A DNA stretch of 37,712 nucleotides from a virus (IMGVR_UViG_3300032291_004494:1-37712); one strand, 5' to 3'; positions 6,853 through 35,792 are shown, numbered from the stretch's first letter. The notes: generated by a model not told the origin, from the letters alone. Numbers and translations: made by a program.

Positions 6853-7275
6853 TCAGAGCCTCATGGTATATTGGCTGGTCGCGATATCGCCCGGGGTCGC
6901 GATGCTCACAGAAAGCCCCAACACCCCGCGCGCCACCCAGGCGGCGGTGACGGAAACGCTGGTGGCCAGCTTCGCTTCCACCAGCCAGGCCAAAGCCTCA
7001 GTCGCGTAATCCTCAGCACGGCGGCGGGTTTCTTCCGTGTGCTTTTCGCGCTTAAGCAGCCAAAGCCGTGAGCCCACGCGGTCTTCCGGGGTGAAGGCAT
7101 CCCCCACCCAGCCGCGCCGGTGGCCTTCGGCGCCGTCATCAGGCCGCGCCCGCGCGTCCAGGAATAGCGACAGCAGAACGGCGGTTTGCAGCCCGTCATC
7201 GCCCGCCAGCGCGCCGGAGGCATTCAGCGCCAGATCAGCGGCGCCCACCCCATCATTCCAGGAAAGCGCAATCAT
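6853..7275 (-). CDS. baseplate protein gp46 family
   Basis: A 140-residue protein matching the phage GP46 family: MIALSWNDGVGAADLAL, LQTAVLLSLFLDARA, and the family hallmark RRGWVGDAF followed by GSRLWLLKREK. In Mu the homologue is a small baseplate wedge/hub component related to T4 gp25-type lysozyme-like proteins. Its start overlaps the end of the gp45 gene by four bases and gp47 follows after two, so the three are translationally coupled. Confidence 0.88.
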   Translation of the reverse strand: MIALSWNDGVGAADLALNASGALAGDDGLQTAVLLSLFLDARARPDDGAEGHRRGWVGDAFTPEDRVGSRLWLLKREKHTEETRRRAEDYATEALAWLVEAKLATSVSVTAAWVARGVLGLSVSIATPGDIATSQYTMRL

Positions 7276-7841
7276 GGCTGCATAAGCGGGCTAGGCCCCG
7301 CGCCCCCGGCATGGGTGTGGCTATTGTAATCCGCGCGCATCCCATTCATGGACATGCCACCGGAAGCCGCGTTGTCGCGGATATCGCCCAGCACATCCAA
7401 GGCATTGGTCACTTCCACCAAAGGCGCTTGAAGGGTGATCTTAGTGTCGGCTTTGATCGTTATTTCATCACCCTCAATTTCGATGGTGCGATCCGCCTTC
7501 AACGTGATCTTGTGGCCGGTCTGGTGCGAATAGATGCAGACATCGCCGGGTTGCATGCCTGTCGGGCGGTGGCGCCTGTCATCCACGCCAATGATCACAG
7601 GATGATCGCGGTTGCCGCCCACGCACACCACCAGGACATCGGCGCCTGCCATGGGCACAGCACTTAAGCCATACGGTTGGATGCGTTCCACATTGTCGCG
7701 CGTTTCGCCGGCCAGCAGCGTCACCTGGCTGCGTTGCAAGCCATCGGCGTCATTCACCGGACCCAGCGTGCCACGGCCAATCGCCAGCATCACGCGGCGT
7801 TGCAGCGGCGCCATGAAGCGCTTCATATCGTCCATGTTCAT
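7272..7841 (-). CDS. baseplate assembly / membrane-piercing spike protein (gpV, Mu gp45)
   Basis: A 189-residue spike protein. It begins with an OB-fold type region (MKRFMAPLQRRVMLAIGRG, then QRSQVTLLAGETRDNVERIQ), continues with a repetitive beta-helix stretch (KITLKADRTIEIEGDEITIK) and ends with YNSHTHAGGAG. The H-T-H near the C-terminus matches the His-x-His metal-binding apex known from P2 gpV and Mu gp45. It acts as the trimeric tip that pierces the outer membrane. Start and stop overlap neighbours as ATGA. Confidence 0.9.
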   Translation of the reverse strand: MNMDDMKRFMAPLQRRVMLAIGRGTLGPVNDADGLQRSQVTLLAGETRDNVERIQPYGLSAVPMAGADVLVVCVGGNRDHPVIIGVDDRRHRPTGMQPGDVCIYSHQTGHKITLKADRTIEIEGDEITIKADTKITLQAPLVEVTNALDVLGDIRDNAASGGMSMNGMRADYNSHTHAGGAGPSPLMQP

Positions 7842-8989
7842 TCGTTCACCCGCTTCCAGCGGTCTTTTTCATCCGCGCGGGTTTCGATGATGGTATCGAA
7901 AGGCCCGCCGCCTTTGCGTTCCCCGCCACCCGCATCAGCATTCTGGCCTTTCTCAGGCAGCAGCGCGTAAGCATCCACGGGCGCCACCTGCAATTCCGTG
8001 ACGGTGCCCTGATCCGTCAGGCTGAACACCACATTGGAAATCAGCAATTCGCGTTCCAATTCCAGGAAAGCATCTTCCACCCAAACCCGGGTATTCGGCA
8101 TCCACAGATTGCCGGAGCTTCCGCGCCAGCCCGGCACGGTGTAGCGCACGCGCTTGGATTTTCCGGCCGCCACCCGCACTTCATGGGTCGCCCGGTCCTG
8201 GAACGTCACCCCTTCGCCCTGCGCTTCGGCCAAGATCACCTTTGGGCGGTGGCGCAGAATGTCTTCATCCCGCGCGCGCGCTTCGCCCTGGCTGGCTGAG
8301 GTTTCGCCCTGCGCCTGGCCACGCACCACCACCAGGTTGTGGCGTTCAGCGGCTTCAAAGCTGCCATTGGCGCGCAGGATATTGCCATCCTTGCCGCCCA
8401 GGCGCAGCGCACCGGCGGCTTCACCACCTTCACCCGCACGCGTCAGGATCAGCGTGCCCAGGCCATCCCCCGTCGCGATCACGGCGCGTTCCCGCGCGGC
8501 GCGGGCAATCGCCTCCCACGCCGCTTCGCCTGGCTGGATGGAAAAGCGCGAGAAAGGTTTGCCAAGGTCCGCTTCCGCCCGCACCGTGATGCCATAAGGC
8601 TCAGCGATGCGGCGCGCGGCTTCTTCCAGGCCGATATTTGACCATTCGTAAGGCCCATCCACCGTCGCCGCGCAATCAACCAGGTCCGCGGTAAGTTCGC
8701 GGCCGCGCACCGTGAGCGTGTGGTTCGTGGCGTCGTAGCTGACTTCCAGCGTATCCAGATAGCCCTTCACGACTTCTTCGCCTTCAAGCGTCAGGGCGAA
8801 TTCCGCACCAGGCCGAATGCTGCGCGCAATCTGCGCGGCGTCTTCCGCACCCGCCCAGCGTTCGGCCAATTCGATGGAGATTTCCGCCGCCGCCGCATCA
8901 AGCCCCAGGCTGCACTTCATGCTCCGCCAGCCGCGATAAATCAGGCCGCCGACAATCAGCGCCACGTCGGCAGCAATGGCGGCGCTCAT
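7838..8989 (-). CDS. baseplate hub protein (Mu gpP/gp44 family)
   Basis: A 383-residue protein of the gp44/gpP (T4 gp27-like hub) family. It shows the Mu-P N-terminus (DVALIVGGLIYRGWRSMKCSLG), GEEVVKGYLDTLEVSYDA, LTVRGRELTADLVDCA, and the conserved end (WMPNTRVWVEDAFLELEREL). Within the virion it links tail tube and spike. It overlaps both gpN (before) and the gp45 spike (after) by four bases. The C-terminus is a charged, probably flexible tail (ERKGGGPFDTI). Confidence 0.9.
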   Translation of the reverse strand: MSAAIAADVALIVGGLIYRGWRSMKCSLGLDAAAAEISIELAERWAGAEDAAQIARSIRPGAEFALTLEGEEVVKGYLDTLEVSYDATNHTLTVRGRELTADLVDCAATVDGPYEWSNIGLEEAARRIAEPYGITVRAEADLGKPFSRFSIQPGEAAWEAIARAARERAVIATGDGLGTLILTRAGEGGEAAGALRLGGKDGNILRANGSFEAAERHNLVVVRGQAQGETSASQGEARARDEDILRHRPKVILAEAQGEGVTFQDRATHEVRVAAGKSKRVRYTVPGWRGSSGNLWMPNTRVWVEDAFLELERELLISNVVFSLTDQGTVTELQVAPVDAYALLPEKGQNADAGGGERKGGGPFDTIIETRADEKDRWKRVNE

Positions 8990-10269
8990 GCCAGCACCTC
9001 AATCGGGCTGCCGGCAGGCACGAAGCCCGGATGGCGCACGCGGTTGCGCGCGACCAAGGCAGCGCCACGGCCAAAGACATCGGAAAGGCTGTCGCCATCC
9101 AATTGATACGCGATCACCGTCGCGGGCATCACAACTGGCAATTCAAGGCGCTTGATGCGCGGCAGCGGTGCGGCGCGCTGCGCCAAATCCGCCGCCATGG
9201 AAGCGCGCAGCGCCATCAGGCTTTGCCAAACAGCATCCCAGCCCAGCGCCGCCACAAGATCAGCCACTGACGCCAGAGCGTCCGATACGCGGTCGCGCGC
9301 TGCCATGGCATCATCGCGCGAAGCCCAGGGTACAGCAGCGGCCGCGCGGGCGAATTCACCAGCGAACATCGTCGCCGCCATCACACCCAAAGCTTCATTC
9401 GCCGTCACCAATTGCTCGCGCGCGGGCGTTGTGGCGGGCGCTGTGGGCGCCGGGACCAATTCCTGGGTGGTGAGTGCGCCAAGCGCTTCAAAGGCAGGCA
9501 CGGGCGCCGCATCCGCGCCCCGGGTCAGCGCCGCGCGCCCACCTGCAAGGGCTGAGACATCACGCGCCGCAGCGGCCAGCGCCAGCGGCACCGCTACATC
9601 CGAAACTAGGTCGGCATCAGAAAGCGTGGATAGCGCCGCGACACTACCAGCCGTCGCCCCACCCTGGCCCACGCTGGACAGCGCACCTTCAATGGCGCCC
9701 GCAATGCCCATCACGCTGGCCTTGAAGCTATCAATCACAAAATCCGCTGCGGCGCGCATGTAGCGGTATTCGGCATAGGCTGCCTGGGCGGCGGTCAGCA
9801 CTTCTTCCGCATCGGCCAGAACACTGCCAAGCCCGTCTTCTTCAATCACCGGCGCGGGCTTGGTGCCGGCCTTTTCCACCCGCAGCGAAATCCGCGCCAC
9901 GCGGGCTTCATTCACATCAGTGGAAATGCGGCAATCCAGCACCACCACCTGCATGGCGCCCAGCCACGGGTGAAGCAGCGTGGCCACTTCCGGGTCCGCC
10001 GCAGCGCGGGCAAAGGCGCGTGCCTGCAACACAACATCGGCGCCGATCAGCAGCCCTTCAATGGAAAAGCTGCGCGTCTTGGCGCCAAGGTCTTCGTGCC
10101 AGGGTTCATCCCGGCCCGGGAATTCATGCGTCACCCAGCGGCGGGTGGACGTGTCTTCTGAACGCTGCACGTAAAACAGCAGGCCACGCAAAGCACCAGG
10201 CCGCAGATTGGCGCCAACCCATGGCAGGGCCGTGGAAAAGCTGGCGAGGCTGGTGAGCGCTTCACTCAT
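8986..10269 (-). CDS. tail/DNA circularization protein (Mu gpN)
   Basis: A 427-residue protein whose first ~150 residues match the DNA circularization N-terminal family (Mu gpN, P2 gpD-neighbour type): LPWVGANLRPGALRGLLFYV, then PWHEDLGAKTRSFSIEGLLIG and LHPWLGAMQVVVLDCRIS (each slightly shortened). The middle is long and Ala-rich helical; the C-terminus contains GDSLSDVFGRGAALVARN, an LysM-like tail/baseplate sequence. Known family members are baseplate central components. It overlaps the tape measure gene (four bases) and gpP. Confidence 0.85.
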   Translation of the reverse strand: MSEALTSLASFSTALPWVGANLRPGALRGLLFYVQRSEDTSTRRWVTHEFPGRDEPWHEDLGAKTRSFSIEGLLIGADVVLQARAFARAAADPEVATLLHPWLGAMQVVVLDCRISTDVNEARVARISLRVEKAGTKPAPVIEEDGLGSVLADAEEVLTAAQAAYAEYRYMRAAADFVIDSFKASVMGIAGAIEGALSSVGQGGATAGSVAALSTLSDADLVSDVAVPLALAAAARDVSALAGGRAALTRGADAAPVPAFEALGALTTQELVPAPTAPATTPAREQLVTANEALGVMAATMFAGEFARAAAAVPWASRDDAMAARDRVSDALASVADLVAALGWDAVWQSLMALRASMAADLAQRAAPLPRIKRLELPVVMPATVIAYQLDGDSLSDVFGRGAALVARNRVRHPGFVPAGSPIEVLA

Positions 10270-27096: not shown

Positions 27097-27465
27097 TTAG
27101 CGGAAGAAGTCGCCTTGGGAGGTAGTCAGACCAGCATCAGTCAGGATGCGCCCAACCGCGCGTTCCGTGATGCCAAGCCTGCGCGCGATGGCCGGATACG
27201 TCATGCCCGCCGCGCGATATAGCCGCACGCGCCAGGCGCGCGCGATCGGCACCAGGATGTGTTCCCCGCCATAGGCTTCGCCCAGGCGGCGCGCTTCGGG
27301 CAGCGGCAAGGCCAGCCGCGCGGCGGAATTCTGATTGACGTCTTTGGGCACGTAAACCCGCGTCCCGCCATGCGCTTCAATCATGCGCAGCGCTGCATCC
27401 GCACCAATGATGTTGGTCAGCCAGTGAATTTCGGCTGGCGCAGGAAGGGTGCGATTAGGCTTCAC
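27097..27465 (-). CDS. Mor/C-family late transcription activator
   Basis: A 122-residue DNA-binding protein of the Mor/C family: IGADAALRMIEAHGGTRVYV-P near residues 20-40, EARRLGEAYGGEHILVPIAR at 57-76 and a C-terminal helix-turn-helix (YPAIARRLGITERAVGRILT). In Mu these proteins bind dyad sites as dimers and recruit RNA polymerase to middle and late promoters. Only one family member is visible here, so it may do both jobs. The start is GTG 27465 without a clear ribosome site. Its gene ends four bases before the palindrome 27075-27092, its likely own target. Confidence 0.87.
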   Translation of the reverse strand: MKPNRTLPAPAEIHWLTNIIGADAALRMIEAHGGTRVYVPKDVNQNSAARLALPLPEARRLGEAYGGEHILVPIARAWRVRLYRAAGMTYPAIARRLGITERAVGRILTDAGLTTSQGDFFR

Positions 27466-28153: not shown

Positions 28154-28530
28154 GGCGCGGCCTGCACCGCGTAGGCGTTACACCCAACGCACAAGCGATT
28201 GCCGATATGGGCAGAGCTGAACACCTCGCGGCAACGCAGGCATGTGCGCGGAAGCGCTTCTGTCGTTTTATCGCGGTAGCGGCGCATGGAACAGGTCAGG
28301 TTCCATTTACCTCCACGGCCACAAATCCCGGTAATGCGCGCGCCGTCGCGCTTCAGTTCCCAAAAGCCGTGCCGGTGGCCAGCATCCAACAGCCGGTAGA
28401 AATCCGAATTGCTGACGCCTATCGCACAGGCAATACTGGTAATGCTGGGCATCACCGGCCCAATTTCTGCCAGCCGCTTGAATTCCTGAAGCAGGTTATC
28501 CAGGCGGGTGTTGGGGCGCGGCGCGTTCAT
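28150..28530 (-). CDS. early regulatory-type protein with HTH and C4 zinc finger
   Basis: A 126-residue protein. The N-terminal half looks like a helix-turn-helix (MPSITSIACAIGVSNSDFYR, then LLDAGHRHGFWELKRDG). The C-terminal part carries a zinc-binding CLRCREVFSSAHIGNRLCVG-C, a C-x2-C ... C-x2-C finger. It lies at the end of the early operon, next to GemA, where Mu-like phages keep small regulators; its target is unknown. It overlaps both neighbours by four bases. Confidence 0.65.
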   Translation of the reverse strand: MNAPRPNTRLDNLLQEFKRLAEIGPVMPSITSIACAIGVSNSDFYRLLDAGHRHGFWELKRDGARITGICGRGGKWNLTCSMRRYRDKTTEALPRTCLRCREVFSSAHIGNRLCVGCNAYAVQAAP

Positions 28531-28958
28531 GCGGCGGCATCCTTCATCAACCGCGCGCGCCAGGCCTTCAGCCCTTCCAGCACACGGTTGGCCAGCGGCG
28601 CGGTCAGGAAATTCGGGCTATCCACGCCTTCCGGGTGATCTTCCGTCTTCGTCTGGCGTCGCACAAAGCTGCGCAGCGCTTCTTCATCACCCCGGCCTTG
28701 CAGCTTGCAAATATCCCCCCATACGGCGTGGATCATGCGGATTTGGGGCTGGGCGCTGCGCTTGGCGGCAGGCTTCGCGCGCCAGCCCAGCCGGGCGAAT
28801 TCGCGCAGCACCGCGTCAAGCTGGTCCACCCGCATCTTGCCCGCGCTGTCCAGGCCCGTGATGCGTTCCAGGATGGCGCGGTAGCTTTCTTCGGCCAGGG
28901 CCAATTGCTTCTTCGCCAGATGGATTTTGGCGATCATGCGCTTGCGGTCTTGGGTCAT
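28527..28958 (-). CDS. gemA: GemA-like protein (Mu gp16 family, DUF1018)
   Basis: A 143-residue protein with the GemA/gp16 pattern: KRMIAKIHLAKKQLALAEES, YRAILERITGLDSAGKMRVD, LDAVLREFARLGWRAK, then MIHAVWGDICKLQGRGDEEA and LRSFVRRQT. In Mu, GemA (gene E16) modulates host gene expression and DNA topology; the exact activity here is inferred. It overlaps the neighbours on both sides (four bases). Confidence 0.9.
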   Translation of the reverse strand: MTQDRKRMIAKIHLAKKQLALAEESYRAILERITGLDSAGKMRVDQLDAVLREFARLGWRAKPAAKRSAQPQIRMIHAVWGDICKLQGRGDEEALRSFVRRQTKTEDHPEGVDSPNFLTAPLANRVLEGLKAWRARLMKDAAA

Positions 28959-29179
28959 AGGCCAAGCCCCCCCTGGCGCACGCGCATCAGCTTCACGTGA
29001 TTGTCGAAGTCCTTCTCCGCGCTCTTGGCCTGCACCAGGTGCAGATGCTGACGGTCTGCGAAGTAGCGCTGCTGCGCGGTGCGCATTTCAAGCGCCAACA
29101 TCGCCAATTCGCGGATGTCTTGCGCATCGGCCTGCGCCACCAATTCCTGCCATTGGCGATCAACGGTGCGCGGCATCAT
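28955..29179 (-). CDS. small hypothetical early protein
   Basis: A 74-residue helical protein (MMPRTVDRQWQELVAQADAQ, then LAMLALEMRTAQQRYFADRQ and EKDFDNHVKLMRVRQGG). It is rich in charged residues and could form a coiled coil. No known domain. It sits between the DnaA-I-like gene and GemA and overlaps both. Confidence 0.6.
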   Translation of the reverse strand: MMPRTVDRQWQELVAQADAQDIRELAMLALEMRTAQQRYFADRQHLHLVQAKSAEKDFDNHVKLMRVRQGGLGL

Positions 29180-29739
29180 GGTGTGGCCCGCCTTTCCGCC
29201 GGCGGGGCGACCTCAATTTCAAGCTCCGGCCGGCGCATGGCGCGGCGCAGAACATCCGCGTAGTGCTGGCGCACCCAATCGCGGTGGAACCGCGTGGGCG
29301 CATGCAGCATGGCGTAGCCGTGTTCATCGCAGGCGATGATTTCCAGCGGCTGTATCCAGGCGATGAATTCCGCATCACTGATCGCGCCACGGATTGCGGC
29401 ATAAAGCGGATGAAAGCGGTCCAACGGGCGCGAAGCGCTGGTTTTTTCCGCAACCGGCGCGGCATTCAAATAATCCAGGAACCTTCGCTGACGCAGGAAG
29501 GTCGCGGCATGAACCACGAAGGCCGCTTCAATGTTCTGCGCCTTCACTTCGGCAGCGTAGCCCGCCGCCGCGCGCGCCAGATCATCAGGCGCCGCACCAT
29601 CCTTCACCGCGCGCGCATAGGCCACTTCGGCCAGCGCGCGCGGGTTTGGCTGGCGCGGCGGATAAGCCGCCCAGAAAATATCGAAGTCATCACGCAGATG
29701 CTTCGGCAGGCCGTCCTTGGGGAAAAGGGCGCGCTGCAT
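29176..29739 (-). CDS. replication-associated protein with DnaA domain-I-like C-terminus
   Basis: A 187-residue protein of two parts. Residues ~18-90 (FDIFWAAYPPRQPNPRALAE, then VVHAATFLRQRRFLDYL) resemble the FW-x-x-YP module of phage replication proteins. Residues ~110-178 (FHPLYAAIRGAISDAEFIAW, then IQPLEIIACDEHGYAMLHAP and TRFHRDWVRQHYADVL) match DnaA domain I, including W-I-x-P-L, A-P-x-R-F and D-W-V-R. In DnaA this domain binds DnaB helicase and other DnaA molecules. A role as host-helicase or DnaA partner in phage replication is inferred. The AAA+ domain is absent. Confidence 0.75.
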   Translation of the reverse strand: MQRALFPKDGLPKHLRDDFDIFWAAYPPRQPNPRALAEVAYARAVKDGAAPDDLARAAAGYAAEVKAQNIEAAFVVHAATFLRQRRFLDYLNAAPVAEKTSASRPLDRFHPLYAAIRGAISDAEFIAWIQPLEIIACDEHGYAMLHAPTRFHRDWVRQHYADVLRRAMRRPELEIEVAPPAERRATP

Positions 29740-29742
29740 GGT

Positions 29743-30114
29743 TCAGCACCAAGGCTCGCGCGGGCCGCGACCATGGTAGCGGCGCGCGAGCCCTTCCGCG
29801 ATCATCACATCGGCCACATCGCGCCCGGTCGCGTCACGCACCACCGCCAGCACGCGGGCGTAGCGATCATGCCCATGCCGCTCCACGGTAAAGCCAGGCG
29901 CCAGCAATTGCGCCAAGCGCAGCCGCGCGCGATAGGCCAGATCAGCTTCAGCATCGCAGCGAGCGTGGATTTCCGGCGCGTCCATGCCCATCAGCCGAAT
30001 CGCCTGCCCACGATAAACGATGGTGTCGCCATCAATCACGCGTGGCGCCTCGGCTGCGGCGGGTGCCGCCAGCGCCAACACCAGCGCGGCGGCGATTTTC
30101 AGGTGGCGGATCAT
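29743..30114 (-). CDS. secreted thermonuclease-family protein (SNase)
   Basis: A 123-residue protein with a signal peptide (MIRHLKIAAALVLALAAPAA, cut near AAA-EA). The nuclease core shows RVIDGDTIVYRGQAIRLMGM followed by D-A-P-E, with Arg40, Asp45 and Glu48 at the spacing of the catalytic site, and GHDRYARVLA (Arg87), so the active site appears complete. It degrades DNA and RNA with calcium. Position in the early operon, beside Gam, is unusual for an exported enzyme; it may act on foreign DNA in the periplasm (inference). Confidence 0.85.
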   Translation of the reverse strand: MIRHLKIAAALVLALAAPAAAEAPRVIDGDTIVYRGQAIRLMGMDAPEIHARCDAEADLAYRARLRLAQLLAPGFTVERHGHDRYARVLAVVRDATGRDVADVMIAEGLARRYHGRGPREPWC

Positions 30115-30311
30115 GCGGCGTTCTCATTCGCGGGCTTCACCCGCGCTGCTTCGGCCTGGGCGCAGATCATGATGGCGGCGTAGCCTGCCTGATCCAGGCG
30201 CTGCGCTTCGCGTTCCGCACGCGGGCGCGTGGCGGCGGCTACGCCGGCATCAAAGGCGGCGGCGACAATGCGCTTCACCACCTGGTCAAGGGGTTGGGTG
30301 TTGTTGCTCAT
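30111..30311 (-). CDS. small hypothetical early protein
   Basis: A 66-residue Ala-rich helical protein (MSNNTQPLDQVVKRIVAAAF, then AEREAQRLDQAGYAAIMICA). It overlaps the Gam gene stop and the SNase start by four bases each. No known domain or membrane segment is seen. Likely expressed with the early genes; function unknown. Confidence 0.6.
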   Translation of the reverse strand: MSNNTQPLDQVVKRIVAAAFDAGVAAATRPRAEREAQRLDQAGYAAIMICAQAEAARVKPANENAA

Positions 30312-30826
30312 GCTGCCATTTCCTTCTGCCCTACGGGTTCAACCACAAAACTTTCACCCGCGCTTTCGATCAGCACGCCGGGCGTCTCAGACGCCAGATC
30401 AGGGTTCGCCAGCATAGCTTCGCGGTTGATCTCAATCTTGCGGCGAAGGAAATCCTCACGCTCATTCTCAATCAGAAAGGCCAGCGCCATCTCCGGCGCC
30501 TTGATGCGCACGGAAGGCGGCGCCTGGCGCCACGCGATGGTGCCATTGTTCATCCGCACGGTCTTGGTTTTGCCGCCATCGGTCAGGGCGTGCCGGTTGG
30601 CCTCGGCCCAAAGCTGCAAGCCGCGGAACAGCCGGTCATGTTCTTCCGTCAGCTTCGCGCTGGATGCTTCCATTTCAGCGGTCACATTCGCAACGGCTTC
30701 CGCCAGCGCCATTTTGTTCAATTGGATTTCGCGCTGGATCAGGCCGATCTGTTCCAGATAGGCTTCCGCCTCGTCTCGATGTTTGGGCGGCGTCGCGGTC
30801 TCCGCCGCGCGCTTGTTCTTAGCCAT
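30308..30826 (-). CDS. gam: host-nuclease inhibitor Gam
   Basis: A 172-residue protein from ATG 30826, preceded by AAAGGAAG; a longer open frame upstream (to 30934) overlaps the zinc-finger ORF and is not needed. The sequence shows a long coiled coil (YLEQIGLIQREIQLNKMALA, then EAVANVTAEMEASSAKLTEE) and the core VRMNNGTIAWRQAPPSVRI, typical of the Mu Gam family, which binds DNA ends and blocks host exonucleases (RecBCD in the Mu precedent). Length equals Mu Gam (174). Confidence 0.87.
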   Translation of the reverse strand: MAKNKRAAETATPPKHRDEAEAYLEQIGLIQREIQLNKMALAEAVANVTAEMEASSAKLTEEHDRLFRGLQLWAEANRHALTDGGKTKTVRMNNGTIAWRQAPPSVRIKAPEMALAFLIENEREDFLRRKIEINREAMLANPDLASETPGVLIESAGESFVVEPVGQKEMAA

Positions 30827-31007
30827 GATGAACTTCCTTTTTTGGGGATGTGGGATGGGGCGCGGCGGCAGGCTTGCCGCGCTTAGGCTTTTGCGCCCGG
30901 CAAAGCGCCGGGAAGTTATGCCGATGAACCGCATCTGCGGCGTAGGACCGGAAGGTCTTGCCGCAGATGCAGCTGTAGATTTGAGACCAATGCATGGCGG
31001 GCATCAT
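30819..31007 (-). CDS. small zinc-finger-like peptide
   Basis: A 62-residue protein (MMPAMHWSQIYSCICGKTFR, then SYAADAVHRHNFPALCRAQK). The pattern C-x-C ... H-x-H ... C resembles a small zinc-binding finger such as the C2H2-like ones in phage early proteins. The C-terminus is Lys/Pro-rich. ATG 31007 overlaps the DnaA-IV gene stop as ATGA and the end overlaps the Gam gene start. Possible DNA- or RNA-binding role. Confidence 0.55.
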   Translation of the reverse strand: MMPAMHWSQIYSCICGKTFRSYAADAVHRHNFPALCRAQKPKRGKPAAAPHPTSPKKEVHHG

Positions 31008-31390
31008 TTCAGGCCCTCACGCAGCCGCTTCATCTTTTCACGGAATCGCGGATCATTCGCCTCATGCGTCCAGACCGCATGATAGGCGTGGCGCACCGTC
31101 GCGCGGTCCTTCGAAAAGGCGCGCGCCACGCGTGAGACAGTCATGTTCATCACGTCGATGCACAGGTTGATCACCACCTGCCGCGCCAGCACCACCTGGC
31201 GGTCGCGGCGGCAGGAAGTGAGGGCCAGCGCCGTCACTTCAAATTCCGTCGCCACCGCTTCGATCACGTCACTGATCGCCACGGGCGGCGGCGGCGTGAA
31301 CAAGTCGCGCGTGTTGGTTTCAAGCGCGCGTACCCGGCGGCTCAGCAGGTCCACCTGGGTGCGCAGATCAGCCAAGGCGCCGGGCGTCAT
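31004..31390 (-). CDS. DnaA domain IV-like DNA-binding protein
   Basis: A 128-residue protein. After a leucine-zipper-like N-terminus (residues 5-28) and a Pro linker, residues ~38-108 match the DNA-binding domain IV of bacterial DnaA: ISDVIEAVATEFEVTALALT, RRDRQVVLARQVVINLCIDV, and FSKDRATVRHAYHAV, where DnaA has a G-R-D-H-T-T-V-L-H-A motif. The DnaA ATPase domain is missing. It starts directly at the stop of the MuB-like gene. Binding to DnaA-box-like sites, either phage or host, is predicted from the family; the purpose is open. Confidence 0.83.
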   Translation of the reverse strand: MTPGALADLRTQVDLLSRRVRALETNTRDLFTPPPPVAISDVIEAVATEFEVTALALTSCRRDRQVVLARQVVINLCIDVMNMTVSRVARAFSKDRATVRHAYHAVWTHEANDPRFREKMKRLREGLK

Positions 31391-32364
31391 CAGGCTGCCT
31401 CAGCCATCAAGGGTGCGCCGGCAGAAAGCCGTTCCCAGGCCATTCTGATATGCGGCTCAGCCACCGCTTCAGCGCCATCGGCACCGGCCAGCATATGCGC
31501 CATGCGCAGCACCTTGGTCAGGTTGCGCAGCGCGCCCGGGCGCTTGGCAATCTTCAGCAGCATGGCGCGTTCTTCCTTGCCGCCGATATCCCAGGCATCC
31601 ATCAATTGTTCGATATCGCCGTTCAGCGCGCGCGGGCGGGCAAGGCGCATGCCGACGCGCGAAAATAGCTGCGCGAATTGCGCCGCGCGGGCACCACCTT
31701 CAAGCTTCGCATGCACGGCTTCATTGCCCAGCAGCGCCATGCCCACATCGGCCAAATCGTAGAACATGCGCAGCTGATCCAGCGTCTGGCTGGTCAAGTG
31801 CTGCGCTTCATCCACCAGGATCAGGCCCTGGCTGCCGGCCATGCGCTTCGTCAGGCTGCGCGAAAGCTGCTGCGTGGAAAGCCCGCGCGATGGCACGCCA
31901 ATCGCTTCGGCCAATTCTTCCAGCACCGCGCGCGGGGTGGACATGGTGGGCTCTGCCGTGATCAGCCACACATTGGTGTTGCGCTTGGCATAGGCGCGCG
32001 CGCTGCTGGTTTTGCCAACACCGGGGGCACCCGTGATCACCACAAATTCCGGCATGAATTGCGCGTGTTCCAGCGTGGCCAGGATGGCGTTCGCTGTTGG
32101 TGTTTCCAGAAAGCCCGGCGCTTTCGGCGCCAGTGCCCGCGTGCGATCCGCGGCTTCCAGCCCGGCCAGCCAATGCCGCGCCTGTTCGGCGATGGGGTTC
32201 TGGCGGCCGCGATAGGTATTGCCCATCCAGCTGCTGAAGGTGCCGTAGGGAATGCCGGTCTGCCGCGCAACATCCGTCATCGCAAGGCTGCGTTCCTGCA
32301 TTTTCGTGCGGATGTGCTGGCGCAGCGCATCCATTTCGTCTGCGTCAACAATATGGTCAGTCAT
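31390..32364 (-). CDS. target-DNA activator B, AAA+ ATPase (MuB-like)
   Basis: A 324-residue protein with an N-terminal HTH (TDVARQTGIPYGTFSSWMGN, ~30-50) and an AAA+ domain: Walker A GAPGVGKTS (112-120), Walker B LILVDEAQH (~181-189). The C-terminal part follows the MuB pattern (QLMDAWDIGGKEERAMLLKI, then LRNLTKVLRMAHMLA). In Mu, B polymerises on target DNA, brings in transposase and provides target immunity. It directly follows transposase A (31 bases) as in Mu. The stop overlaps the next gene. Confidence 0.9.
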   Translation of the reverse strand: MTDHIVDADEMDALRQHIRTKMQERSLAMTDVARQTGIPYGTFSSWMGNTYRGRQNPIAEQARHWLAGLEAADRTRALAPKAPGFLETPTANAILATLEHAQFMPEFVVITGAPGVGKTSSARAYAKRNTNVWLITAEPTMSTPRAVLEELAEAIGVPSRGLSTQQLSRSLTKRMAGSQGLILVDEAQHLTSQTLDQLRMFYDLADVGMALLGNEAVHAKLEGGARAAQFAQLFSRVGMRLARPRALNGDIEQLMDAWDIGGKEERAMLLKIAKRPGALRNLTKVLRMAHMLAGADGAEAVAEPHIRMAWERLSAGAPLMAEAA

Positions 32365-32395: not shown

Positions 32396-34390
32396 TCACG
32401 CCTCGGTGTCGTCAGTGTTCAGCAGGCGCAGATGCGCGGGCGATGGTGCCTTCCGCATGCTGGCGCGCGCTGTCACGAAAAGCCTTTCGGACCGCGCTTC
32501 CGATGTTTCTTCCTCCGTCTCATGCTTGGGTTTCAGCGCCACCGCGCCACGGAAAAGTGGGCGCACAATCTGCGGTGCGGGTGGGTCTGGAATGTCGCGC
32601 TGCGCGGCGGCGATATCGCGCGCAAGCTGTTCGGCGCTGATGCGTGATTCCGCATCCGCCAGCAGCTTCAGGCCACGGCGGCGCAGGCGCACGGCGGTCG
32701 CGGTGCGGCGTGCGGCGTCCGTATCGCCAAAGCCCTGATCAGCCCAGCATTCGGCGGTGCAGAAGTAATCGCCATTCGCCAGATACACATGGACCGGCGC
32801 ATGCAGCTTGTCCGGGTCGAACCGCAGGGCAACGTTTCGCCCGCGCAATTCGACCAGCCGCGCGTCATGATAACGATTGCCCAGCAGATGGATCGTGGCG
32901 TCACGCCTGACGCGCACTTCTTCCGCCGCAAGCAGGAAGATGCGCCGCTGCGCTTCCGTCGCGCGCGTGATGGGCGCTTCGGCGTAGCTTTCGGCAAAAG
33001 TGTCATCGAAGGACCGGCCCCGGCAATTCAGCGCCGCGCGACCAGGCCGAGCATTATGTTCGGCAATTGCCGCTTCCAGCACGCCCATGAATTCCGCCAG
33101 CGGCACGGCCTTTTTGCCGTAATCGAAGGGCTTGTCGGTGGGCTTATTGCCGGTCCAGGCGCCTACAAAAGCCGGGTGCCGCGCGACATCGCGGGCAAGG
33201 TCGCCAAAGGCGCGTTCGATCGGCTTTGACTGGCCCGAAAAAGGCTTCGCCCAATGCACGGCCACGCCAAGGCTGGCGAAGATGCCAAGCGGTTCTTCTT
33301 CCCGCACCTTGAAGCGAAAGCGCCGCTTCAACCCGCCTGACATGGTCTTATTCGCGGCGGCCAGCGTGTTATCAATTGTCACCGCGCCGGGGATGCCAAA
33401 CTTGTCCACCACATCACTGAAGGCAAGGCGGAACGTGTCGCCCGTCTCCGCCTGCGCCACGCGGTACGTCAGCAATTTGCCCGAATAAAGGTCTTGGAAG
33501 AACACACCCATGGGGCGCGCCGTGGTGCCATCTGGCCACTTCACGAACACATCGAAGCGATGGCCGTCTGCATTCACCCATTGCAGCGCGTGCAGCATGG
33601 AACGGTCGCGCCGCTGCGCCGGGAACATGCGGTTGGTCGCATCCGGCCCTTCGCGGTGCCAGGACACCACGGTGGCGGGCAGCGCAGCAATCCGGCGGCG
33701 CAGCGTCTGCGCCGATGGCAAGCGCCAGCCCTTTTGCACCGCCACCTGCTGCAAATCCCGCCAGCAGGCTTCGAATGTGGGGCGGTTCGGCAGCAGATAC
33801 CGCGCGCGCAGCCATTCCCAGGCGTCATCAGCGCATGCCGCGCGCGGGCCTTTCGCGCCCACATATTGCGGCACCAGCCGCGCCATCCAATGCGCGCGAT
33901 CCGTGCCTTCAACCAGCGCCGCCCAGGCATAAAGCGCAGCGCGGGAGACATCATGCGTGGCCGCCACTTCCATCATGGCCACGCTGCGCGATTGGCCCTG
34001 CGCTACCAGCGCTGCCACCGCATCCAGCGCCGCCACACGCTGCGCGGCACGCTGCTTGTGTTTCTCGGGCGCGCGCTCATACCCCTGCCAGGCGGCGTCA
34101 TCGCTCAATTCGCGCAGCGCTGCATCGCGCGCGGGGGCGGGGTGTTGCGCCGCTTCCTTGGCCAGCAGCTTCGCCTGCGTGAAGCTGGGCAGCACGCCAA
34201 TCCAGTATTCAATGCCGCCACCACGGCCCTGCCGGCGGCGCCACAGGCGGCCTTCCGCAGCCGGGTGGCTCCATTCCTCGCGTTCCGCCTGTAGCGCCAG
34301 GCCGCGCCGCGTATCGGGAATGCCGGGCAGGCCCAGCGCGGCCAATTCGGCGAGCGTAAACCAGCAGTCGGTCTGCGCGGCCATCATCAC
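32396..34390 (-). CDS. DDE transposase A (MuA-like)
   Basis: A 664-residue transposase, the length of MuA (663). The N-terminal Mu DNA-binding domain is visible (WFTLAELAALGLPGIPDTRR, then GLALQAEREEWSHPAAEGRL). The DDE core has Asp275 (WVNADGHRFD), Asp340 (GAVTIDNTLAA) and Glu392 (KPIERAFGDL). After it come the Mu-type C-terminal parts (FMGVLEAAIAEHNARPGRAA and the beta-barrel region). It joins phage ends to target DNA in integration and replication. Start ATG 34390 overlaps the preceding gene. Confidence 0.95.
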   Translation of the reverse strand: MMMAAQTDCWFTLAELAALGLPGIPDTRRGLALQAEREEWSHPAAEGRLWRRRQGRGGGIEYWIGVLPSFTQAKLLAKEAAQHPAPARDAALRELSDDAAWQGYERAPEKHKQRAAQRVAALDAVAALVAQGQSRSVAMMEVAATHDVSRAALYAWAALVEGTDRAHWMARLVPQYVGAKGPRAACADDAWEWLRARYLLPNRPTFEACWRDLQQVAVQKGWRLPSAQTLRRRIAALPATVVSWHREGPDATNRMFPAQRRDRSMLHALQWVNADGHRFDVFVKWPDGTTARPMGVFFQDLYSGKLLTYRVAQAETGDTFRLAFSDVVDKFGIPGAVTIDNTLAAANKTMSGGLKRRFRFKVREEEPLGIFASLGVAVHWAKPFSGQSKPIERAFGDLARDVARHPAFVGAWTGNKPTDKPFDYGKKAVPLAEFMGVLEAAIAEHNARPGRAALNCRGRSFDDTFAESYAEAPITRATEAQRRIFLLAAEEVRVRRDATIHLLGNRYHDARLVELRGRNVALRFDPDKLHAPVHVYLANGDYFCTAECWADQGFGDTDAARRTATAVRLRRRGLKLLADAESRISAEQLARDIAAAQRDIPDPPAPQIVRPLFRGAVALKPKHETEEETSEARSERLFVTARASMRKAPSPAHLRLLNTDDTEA

Positions 34391-34836
34391 GCGCCACTCC
34401 GCGCGCTGCGCATCAGGAATTCCCGGCGCCGGCGCAATTCATCTTCATGTTCACGGATGGCCGCGACCTCAATCAGCGGCAGGTGGCGGCGCTCAATCAC
34501 CGCCCAGCCCATGGGCTCCGCGATAAGTTCCAGCAGGCGGCGGTCGCGGGTCGCATGCAGCAGGCCCATCAGGCGCGGCACGCTGATCTTGTGGTCTTCG
34601 CGCGCCTGGCTGGCATAGGCATCCAGCATGGCGGGGGAGACACGCTCACCCAGGAAGGTGGACATGCGGGCCGCGATGGTTTCGCGGTCCACATCCGCAT
34701 CCGCCAGCGCCACCGCCACCGCGCGGGAAACGCGGGCGGCGAAGCTGGCGGCGCGCACCTGTTCTTCCGGGAAGCGTTTTACCGCTTCCGGCGCTTGCCA
34801 ATCCAAAAGATCAGGCTGTCCGGGGTGGCGAACCAT
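34387..34836 (-). CDS. early hypothetical protein upstream of transposase
   Basis: A 149-residue helical protein (QPDLLDWQAPEAVKRFPEEQ, then SFAARVSRAVAVALADADVD and RETIAARMSTFLGERVSPAM). The RxTIAARMSxFLGE... segment resembles a helix-turn-helix found in small Mu-like early proteins. Such genes directly before A are common in alphaproteobacterial Mu-like phages; function unknown. Nine bases separate it from the small membrane ORF. Confidence 0.62.
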   Translation of the reverse strand: MVRHPGQPDLLDWQAPEAVKRFPEEQVRAASFAARVSRAVAVALADADVDRETIAARMSTFLGERVSPAMLDAYASQAREDHKISVPRLMGLLHATRDRRLLELIAEPMGWAVIERRHLPLIEVAAIREHEDELRRRREFLMRSARSGA

Positions 34837-34845
34837 GACCGAGCC

Positions 34846-34962
34846 TCAGGGCTTTATGCCAGCGGCCACGAAGGCCAGCGTGCCGAACCAGAAGAAGCCA
34901 AGGACAAACCCGGCAAAGGCCGCGCCGCCCAGCGCGGCGCGCAGCAGGCGGCGCGCTTGCAT
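34846..34962 (-). CDS. 38-residue single-span membrane peptide
   Basis: A short frame (MQARRLLRAALGGAAFAGFV, then LGFFWFGTLAFVAAGIKP) between the ParB-like gene and the pre-transposase gene. The ATG overlaps the preceding stop (TGATG at 34964-34960). It has a basic N-terminus and one hydrophobic stretch, so it would insert in the inner membrane with the N-terminus inside. A phage early membrane peptide could affect host envelope or act in superinfection exclusion; this is speculation. Confidence 0.55.
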   Translation of the reverse strand: MQARRLLRAALGGAAFAGFVLGFFWFGTLAFVAAGIKP

Positions 34963-35792
34963 CACCGCTCACCCCCGATTTCGCCTTCGGCGACCAGGAA
35001 GTCGATGAAGCGGCGGCGCGCTGCCTGCCGGGCCTTCCGCCAGGCATTGATCAGCCGTTCATATTCCTGCGATGCTTCTGCGGCGGCGGCGCCTTTGGGT
35101 CGGGGGGTGAATTCCGCAATGGCGGCGGCAAGGTTCCGGGCTGGCCCTTCTTCGCGGGTCAGGGCCTCAGCCGCCTTCCGTTGCTTCCAGTGTTCCAGCT
35201 TAGTCAGGCCATCCAGAACGCTGCCATTATCGGCCCATTTGGAATGGGCCAGCATGCCCTTCACATCATCGGCCAGGGCATTGTTCCGGCGAATGGCGCG
35301 GTCCACTGATCGGGGGGAAAGCCCCAGCCTTTCGGCGGCGTCTTCGGCGAAGGTTGGAATTAAAGACAAATTTGTCTTTAATTTCTTCCTTCCAACAACA
35401 GCAGTTTCTGGATTGAGCCTGATCCAGACCGCCTTGCGCTCCGCCAGGAAGGTGGCGCGGTCAAGTTCCGTCAGGTCGCGGCGGCAAAGGTTCTCGTCAA
35501 TCTCGCGCAGCCGCGCCTGGTCTTCATCGGCGTCGGTAATGCTGGCCGCGATCTGGTCCATCTCTGCCAGCCGGGCCGCTGCCAGCCGGTGCGCGCCCGC
35601 GACCAGAACAAACTTGCCGGCCTCATCGCGTCGCACCTCAATCGGCGTCATCTGGCCATTGGTGCGGAAGCTTTCCGCGATCAGCGCGGCATGGTCCGGG
35701 TTCACGGACCGCAGGCGGTCCTCGACAAGGATTTGATCCACCGGGATCATTTCAATCCAGCCGGGTGGGTCAAGCATAGGCGCGTTGTTCAC
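34962..35792 (-). CDS. ParB-like nuclease/partition-domain protein
   Basis: A 276-residue protein. The N-terminal ~100 residues match the ParB/Srx-like fold: IEMIPVDQILVEDRLRSVNP, SFRTNGQMTPIEVRR, FVLVAGAHRLAAARLAEMD. A middle helical part follows (ENLCRRDLTELDRATFLAER), then a helix-turn-helix (EDAAERLGLSPRSVDRAIRR) and a basic Ala/Arg-rich end. Full partition function needs ParA and a parS site, neither of which is seen; phage ParB-like proteins often have other DNA-binding jobs. It overlaps the Ner-like gene by 23 bases. Confidence 0.82.
   Translation of the reverse strand: MNNAPMLDPPGWIEMIPVDQILVEDRLRSVNPDHAALIAESFRTNGQMTPIEVRRDEAGKFVLVAGAHRLAAARLAEMDQIAASITDADEDQARLREIDENLCRRDLTELDRATFLAERKAVWIRLNPETAVVGRKKLKTNLSLIPTFAEDAAERLGLSPRSVDRAIRRNNALADDVKGMLAHSKWADNGSVLDGLTKLEHWKQRKAAEALTREEGPARNLAAAIAEFTPRPKGAAAAEASQEYERLINAWRKARQAARRRFIDFLVAEGEIGGER

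Follow-up and report, generated by a model that had tools for sequence, protein, structure and literature searches.

Background

Only for Escherichia coli is it known how a Mu-like phage moves on from transposition into replication. Restart proteins are used there: PriA, PriC and DnaT are needed for loading of the replicative helicase DnaB at the fork (PMC3334882). DnaC/DnaI is missing from most bacteria (PMC9825169; PMC5109545). In E. coli, DnaB is also contacted by domain I of the initiator DnaA, through Glu21 and Phe46 (PMC6127211). DnaA domain IV has a homologue in Caulobacter GafY, which binds promoters with sigma-70 contact, switches on phage-like gene-transfer-agent (GTA) genes and is proposed not to work at oriC (PMC9632790, PMC11150451). 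Precedents likewise exist for DnaA-like proteins used by phages, for helicase loaders of phage origin and for free proteins of the domain IV type. In this work, we analysed the virus record IMGVR_UViG_3300032291_004494 of IMG/VR (37,712 nucleotides, i.e. 37.7 kb; hereafter the window), in which domains I and IV of DnaA are encoded by two separate genes, here named dI and dIV, of the early operon of a Mu-like phage. No description of the arrangement found in dI, in which a transposable phage joins DnaA domain I to a replication module of phages, was found in the open-licence papers searched.

Results and discussion

DnaA domains I and IV lie on two separate phage proteins

Residues 116-169 of the 187-residue dI protein match the Pfam family DnaA_N (51.7 bits for a cut-off of 24.6, E 7.3e-14), and residues 39-105 of the 128-residue dIV protein match Bac_DnaA_C (54 bits for a cut-off of 31.5, E 1.7e-14). 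As these scores are far above the curated thresholds, the first-pass annotation, which had recognised domains I and IV on separate proteins from motifs, was correct in this respect. It had also located both genes accurately; it gave no strand, which is the minus strand for both, the plus frame over 29176-29739 being meaningless. The AAA+ domain III is, as it had noted, absent from both proteins: neither has a Pfam match to Bac_DnaA, and the full-length DnaA equivalog TIGR00362 gave 21 and 59 bits for the two proteins for a cut-off of 344.

The two genes belong to an early operon ordered A-B-dIV-Gam-SNase-dI-GemA, where SNase stands for a staphylococcal-nuclease-like gene. The dIV start codon overlaps the B stop codon (TGATG), and dI is placed between the nuclease-like gene and a small open reading frame (ORF) preceding GemA. 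Both proteins are thus encoded within the replication and transposition operon of a transposing phage, and the adjacent B gene encodes an AAA+ ATPase, MuB (Phage-MuB_C, AAA_22), in agreement with the earlier description. The same operon was found in prophages of Roseomonas metagenome-assembled genomes, and the phage host is therefore probably a Roseomonas-like (freshwater) bacterium.

For domains I and IV, host DnaA and the phage proteins agree in sequence family, in fold and in most of the key residues. The latter differ from host DnaA in lacking domain III, in distributing the domains over two proteins and in joining domain I to a replication module. Identity to the Roseomonas DnaA domains is low (38-39 % for domain I, 28-29 % for domain IV), and a recent capture from host DnaA was rejected on this ground.

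The dI protein joins a phage replication module to DnaA domain I

On its family matches, dI is a phage replication module joined to DnaA domain I and more than a bare DnaA domain, because its residues 15-107 match phrog_270 (E 1.3e-15), a family of replication initiators from phages, in the C-terminal module; related families matched more weakly. This region aligns to positions 175-266 of the 383 positions of the phrog_270 profile, positions 1-174 being unmatched since dI begins at the module. It contains the motif FWxxYP...HAATFLRQRR, comparable to the FWxxYP...HxxTxLxQRRxxDY module of phrog_270 initiators such as the replication protein of Lactococcus phage BK5-T, and weak matches to Lactococcus phage replication proteins were obtained. 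Unlike these initiators, dI lacks the long N-terminal part and carries a C-terminal DnaA domain I. In Mu-like loci, the module was always joined to DnaA_N.

The nearest full architecture found was that of a non-Mu viral contig, L190 (IMGVR_UViG_3300035704_000384, positions 6879-9771), which encodes a full-length DnaA (TIGR00362, 366 bits for a cut-off of 344) directly followed by a 475-residue replication protein composed of an N-terminal part, a phrog_270-type module and a C-terminal DnaA_N. This arrangement indicates that the combination of module and DnaA_N belongs to phage replication initiation.

The domain I part is supported by profile and structure searches. An 11-sequence profile of dI homologues retrieved E. 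coli DnaA domain I (2e0g, E 3.6e-6), and in the predicted structure of dI this part is modelled with a predicted local distance difference test (pLDDT) score of 83-90. DnaA domain I takes the first five places among the PDB matches of the model (probability 1.00, E 0.014-0.18), DciA coming at rank 8. Residues were numbered against stretches of E. coli DnaA; for domain I, the stretch used is consistent with the alignment to 2e0g. Phe46, a DnaB-docking residue in E. coli, is present in the dI of the window and kept in all divergent homologues except one (G911). The acidic residue 21 is kept as Glu21 in the window and is E or D in most divergent homologues, and Trp25 is retained in all divergent phage homologues. 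Trp6, the residue of DnaA domain I self-association, is lost in all phage dI homologues, including that of the window. The retention of Phe46 and Glu21 supports as a possibility the earlier proposal that the phage recruits DnaB, binding itself being predicted from these residues.

The dIV protein is a free DnaA domain IV

The dIV protein was modelled with a pLDDT of 87 and comprises an N-terminal helix (residues 3-30), which reads as a coiled coil, in front of the lone domain IV. Its best PDB matches in Foldseek are 3pvp (E 4e-6) and 1j1v (E 4e-5), which are DNA-binding domains of DnaA from Mycobacterium tuberculosis and E. coli; the template-modelling score is 0.88-0.90 by target, with 0.90 for 1j1v. 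The box-reading motif of DnaA (R399/D433-H434-T435) appears in its canonical form, RDHTTV, in most divergent dIV proteins. The clade of the window has KDRATV at this base-contact motif instead, and because of this replacement the dIV of the window may read a changed DNA site; DnaA-box binding by this clade is doubtful.

Titration of DnaA boxes, one of the roles suggested by the first-pass annotation, was dropped: box-like sites in the phage are at the level of shuffled sequence for two consensus forms (TTWTNCACA, 24 sites for 26 expected; TGWTNCACA, 33 for 35). A tree of domain IV, built on about 95 alignment columns and weak in its deep internal branching, places phage dIV on the DnaA side, apart from the GafY family (support 100/99). 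Marking of the phage DNA, regulation of phage genes and occupancy of DnaA sites in the host are all possible roles for dIV.

Selection on the two genes

Both genes are kept in position and are under purifying selection. The median ratio of non-synonymous to synonymous substitution (dN/dS) rises from 0.21 in the N-terminal half of dI to 0.35 in domain I and 0.44 in domain IV, GemA having a value of 0.16. Between near-identical operons, synonymous divergence (pS) is higher in domain I (0.51) than in the N-terminal half of dI (0.32), and this difference within one gene suggests recombinational exchange of the domain I part or diversifying pressure on it.

Distribution of dI and dIV among relatives

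Relatives were sampled in three ways: through MuB in genomes of the order (299 genomes, with Pfam searches in 33 of them), through the dI fusion in IMG/VR and through dIV in IMG/VR. Among the nearest relatives, both genes were present in every locus covering both. Prophages whose B protein has 61-92 % identity carry both genes (G001, G004, G077 and G215, the last on broken contigs), with the exception of G125 (B 65 % identical), which has dIV only and in which Gam is directly followed by GemA; prophages with B at 44 % identity or less have neither gene. The co-occurrence of dI with dIV has a Fisher p of 1.6e-4 in these MuB-ascertained genomes, kinship being uncorrected.

The second sampling added 12 dI-fusion loci (L131-L142, 42-61 % identity), all 12 of which have dIV upstream of Gam, these calls being checked with Pfam for several loci. 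In one of them, L140, MuA and MuB are replaced by a TniB-like ATPase and a transposase of the rve type that ends in a Mu C-terminal domain; the pair is thus retained with more than one kind of transposition module. No second Bac_DnaA_C protein accompanies the more divergent fusions (about 30 % identity) of two genomes, G468 (two loci) and G564. At the thresholds used, the fusion was detected in 3 of 385 alphaproteobacterial genomes and 2 of 398 genomes of the phylum, and is therefore rare.

Through dIV, at least 444 viral contigs were matched, of which 80 were kept (L144-L223). Many of these 80 have short stand-alone domain IV frames; with the number of contigs matched, this shows that phages commonly encode DnaA domain IV as a free protein. 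Among the Mu-like loci of the 80-contig set, both genes occur in L144-L146 (L144 being the L133 contig and L146 the L131 contig), and dIV occurs without dI in L147, L152, L167 and L203. Pelagiphages and other phages (HTVC203P, the Skadi phages and hundreds of contigs in IMG/VR) also encode stand-alone DnaA-like proteins with a free or short domain IV; these differ in being mostly outside transposable phages and unpaired with a dI fusion. No DnaA domain was found in the genes scanned between B and GemA of the reference phages RcapMu, StopSmel, YPCBV-1 and POA1180, and Mu-like phages as a whole therefore do not share the trait. In ten non-Mu loci of the 80-contig set, a replication protein with a dI-type module lies near a domain IV gene.

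Overall, the fusion is nearly always accompanied by dIV, whereas dIV often occurs without the fusion: the two are linked, not obligately paired. Co-occurrence in relatives, a check named by the first-pass annotation, holds for all near-clade loci covering both genes and for 12 of 12 further loci at 42 % identity or more, and fails as a strict rule.

Putative function of dI and dIV

The reading that we favour, with a probability of roughly 0.45, is that dI is a helicase-recruitment adaptor, or primosome organiser, for replicative transposition and dIV a separate DnaA-type DNA-binding protein of the same early programme. The N-terminal half of dI would attach to the fork or to further replication proteins of the phage, and its domain I would dock the host replicative helicase DnaB via the Phe46/Glu21 patch. 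The protein would in this way deliver DnaB to the forks that MuA/MuB create by strand transfer, replacing the PriA-PriC-DnaT-DnaC route used by Mu in E. coli. The dIV protein, probably dimeric through its coiled coil, would act on sites of the phage or through occupancy of DnaA sites in the host, perhaps in cooperation with dI. Placing DnaB at strand-transfer forks is the job proposed for the Mu restart route (PMC3334882), which is host-encoded in E. coli, whereas dI is phage-encoded and DnaA-derived. PriC scored below its cut-off in 13 of 13 host genomes searched, the E. coli control being positive. Given the docking residues, the replication module, the L190 architecture, the conserved operon, the presence of the pair with two transposition modules and the PriC-less hosts, recruitment of DnaB to the transposition fork would be the most economical role for dI.

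Several points weigh against this role. The N-terminal half of dI was modelled too poorly by AlphaFold (pLDDT about 39-68) for its fold to be read, and a profile search matched it to no solved PDB structure; its activity is predicted from the family assignment. In species using DciA, conservation of the DnaB residues that DnaA contacts in E. coli is only moderate or poor (PMC9825169), so the E. coli contacts may not transfer. Moreover, dI is absent from many same-order Mu-like prophages whose hosts are PriC-less too (G159, G205, G165, G280), so that dI is not required there for Mu-type replication. G125 has no dI either.

Among the other explanations, dI and dIV might be dominant-negative decoys of host DnaA that halt chromosome initiation in the lytic phase, dIV sitting on the DnaA boxes of oriC without an AAA+ domain and dI sequestering DnaB or other partners of domain I. 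Both proteins are indeed DnaA fragments lacking domain III, most divergent dIV proteins have the canonical RDHTTV motif, and dN/dS is higher in both DnaA domains than in the neighbouring GemA. In addition, dIV is placed between B and Gam, where the early genes for host takeover are found in Mu. DnaA is a known target of phage proteins, YfdR binding domain I at Phe46 and lambda P binding domain III (PMC4776307). We nevertheless consider the decoy function unlikely, as a conserved phage replication module would not be expected in a pure decoy and the KDRATV motif makes box binding doubtful in the clade of the window. Slightly less probable still is that dIV acts as a transcription activator in the manner of GafY/GafA, dI being an unrelated replication helper. 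GafY, like the N-terminus of GafA, is also a small alphaproteobacterial DnaA-domain-IV-type protein tied to phage-like elements (PMC9632790, PMC9638019), the DR[SA]TV motif is common to the dIV of the window and GafY-like proteins, and the lack of DnaA-box enrichment in the phage fits such a role. The separate position of phage dIV in the tree, obtained from a short alignment, argues against it, as do scores of only 20-28 bits against the PRK06030 small-protein families (cut-offs 136-181), the absence of a DUF6456/GafZ-like partner among the early-operon proteins scanned with Pfam, and the presence of the phage's own Mor-like protein. The tree and the family cut-offs led us to reject dIV as a GafY orthologue and to retain GafY as a functional analogy only.

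The split initiator put forward by the first-pass annotation, in which dI and dIV would be the separated halves of one initiator and MuB would supply the AAA+ part so that a DnaA-like activity is rebuilt, appears very improbable. In its favour is the co-occurrence described above (all near-clade loci covering both genes, the 12 divergent fusion loci, and the Fisher test). The exceptions run in both directions, with dIV lacking dI in five loci (G125, L147, L152, L167, L203) and the fusion lacking dIV in G468 and G564, and leave a split initiator unsupported; in its obligate form it was rejected. Trp6, the self-contact residue of domain I, is lost, and dI and dIV are not halves of one host gene because domain I is joined to an unrelated phage replication domain. 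The two proteins are probably separate replication helpers.

An extended form of the helicase-recruitment reading would make dI and dIV a two-protein, DnaA-derived primosome organiser in transposable phages of DciA-type alphaproteobacteria. Here dIV would mark the phage DNA or transpososome and dI would bring DnaB to the strand-transfer fork in place of PriA-PriC-DnaT-DnaC, the pair being kept through exchange of the transposition module. We regard this combined scheme as speculative and, like the decoy function, improbable. The dI protein is nonetheless a concrete candidate for the transposition-to-replication step outside enterobacteria; of the E. coli restart proteins, at least PriC was not found in the hosts searched here. 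If its proposed role is true, it would offer a small testable system for the contact between DnaA domain I and DnaB in alphaproteobacteria, of value because most such hosts manage DnaB with DciA and not DnaC.

Gene content of the window

The window falls among the Mu-like transposable phages, with MuA (a DDE transposase), MuB, Gam, GemA, Mu Gp27 and a Mor-like protein, the last scoring just below its Pfam cut-off. It also encodes an S24 repressor, a terminase, a portal protein, and sheath and baseplate proteins, indicative of a contractile tail type. Features of the early region and its surroundings are given in Table 1.

Table 1. Features of the early region of the window (coordinates from the first nucleotide of the window)
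Feature	Coordinates	Strand	Support
Mor-like protein	27097-27465		Pfam score just under cut-off
GemA	28527..28958	-	PF06252, 89.2 bits
dI, 187 aa: replication-initiator module (aa 15-107) and DnaA domain I (aa 116-169)	29176..29739	-	phrog_270, DnaA_N
Staphylococcal-nuclease-like (SNase) protein, directly upstream of dI	29743..30114	-	PF00565, 37.3 bits
Mu Gam-like end-protection protein	30308..30934	-	Phage_Mu_Gam, 96.9 bits
Small ORF with zinc-ribbon-like start	30819-31007		CxC...H...C
dIV, 128 aa: N-terminal coiled-coil-like helix and lone DnaA domain IV	31004..31390	-	Bac_DnaA_C, fold matches
MuB-type transposition ATPase (AAA+)	31390..32364	-	Phage-MuB_C, 68.4 bits; AAA_22; phrog_296, E 8e-78
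MuA-type transposase	32396..34390	-	DDE_2, HTH_Tnp_Mu_1/2, Mu-transpos_C
CII-like regulator, upstream of A	34387..34836	-	phrog_2345, E 1e-37
ParB-like partition protein	34962-35792		phrog_3264, E 4e-55

Some relatives have the small ORF with the zinc-ribbon-like start between dIV and Gam; in those without it, dIV reads through to its C-terminal sequence. The SNase-like protein has an apparent signal-like N-terminus. A ParB-like protein such as that encoded in the early region of the window is also present in RcapMu and other alphaproteobacterial Mu-like phages. Finally, a freshwater sequence filed as 'Bacteriophage sp.' (L098, MW462191.1) carries a GafY-like gene followed by a 268-residue gene and a sulfur acceptor gene; this is the synteny of a chromosomal GTA regulator, and the record may be bacterial sequence.

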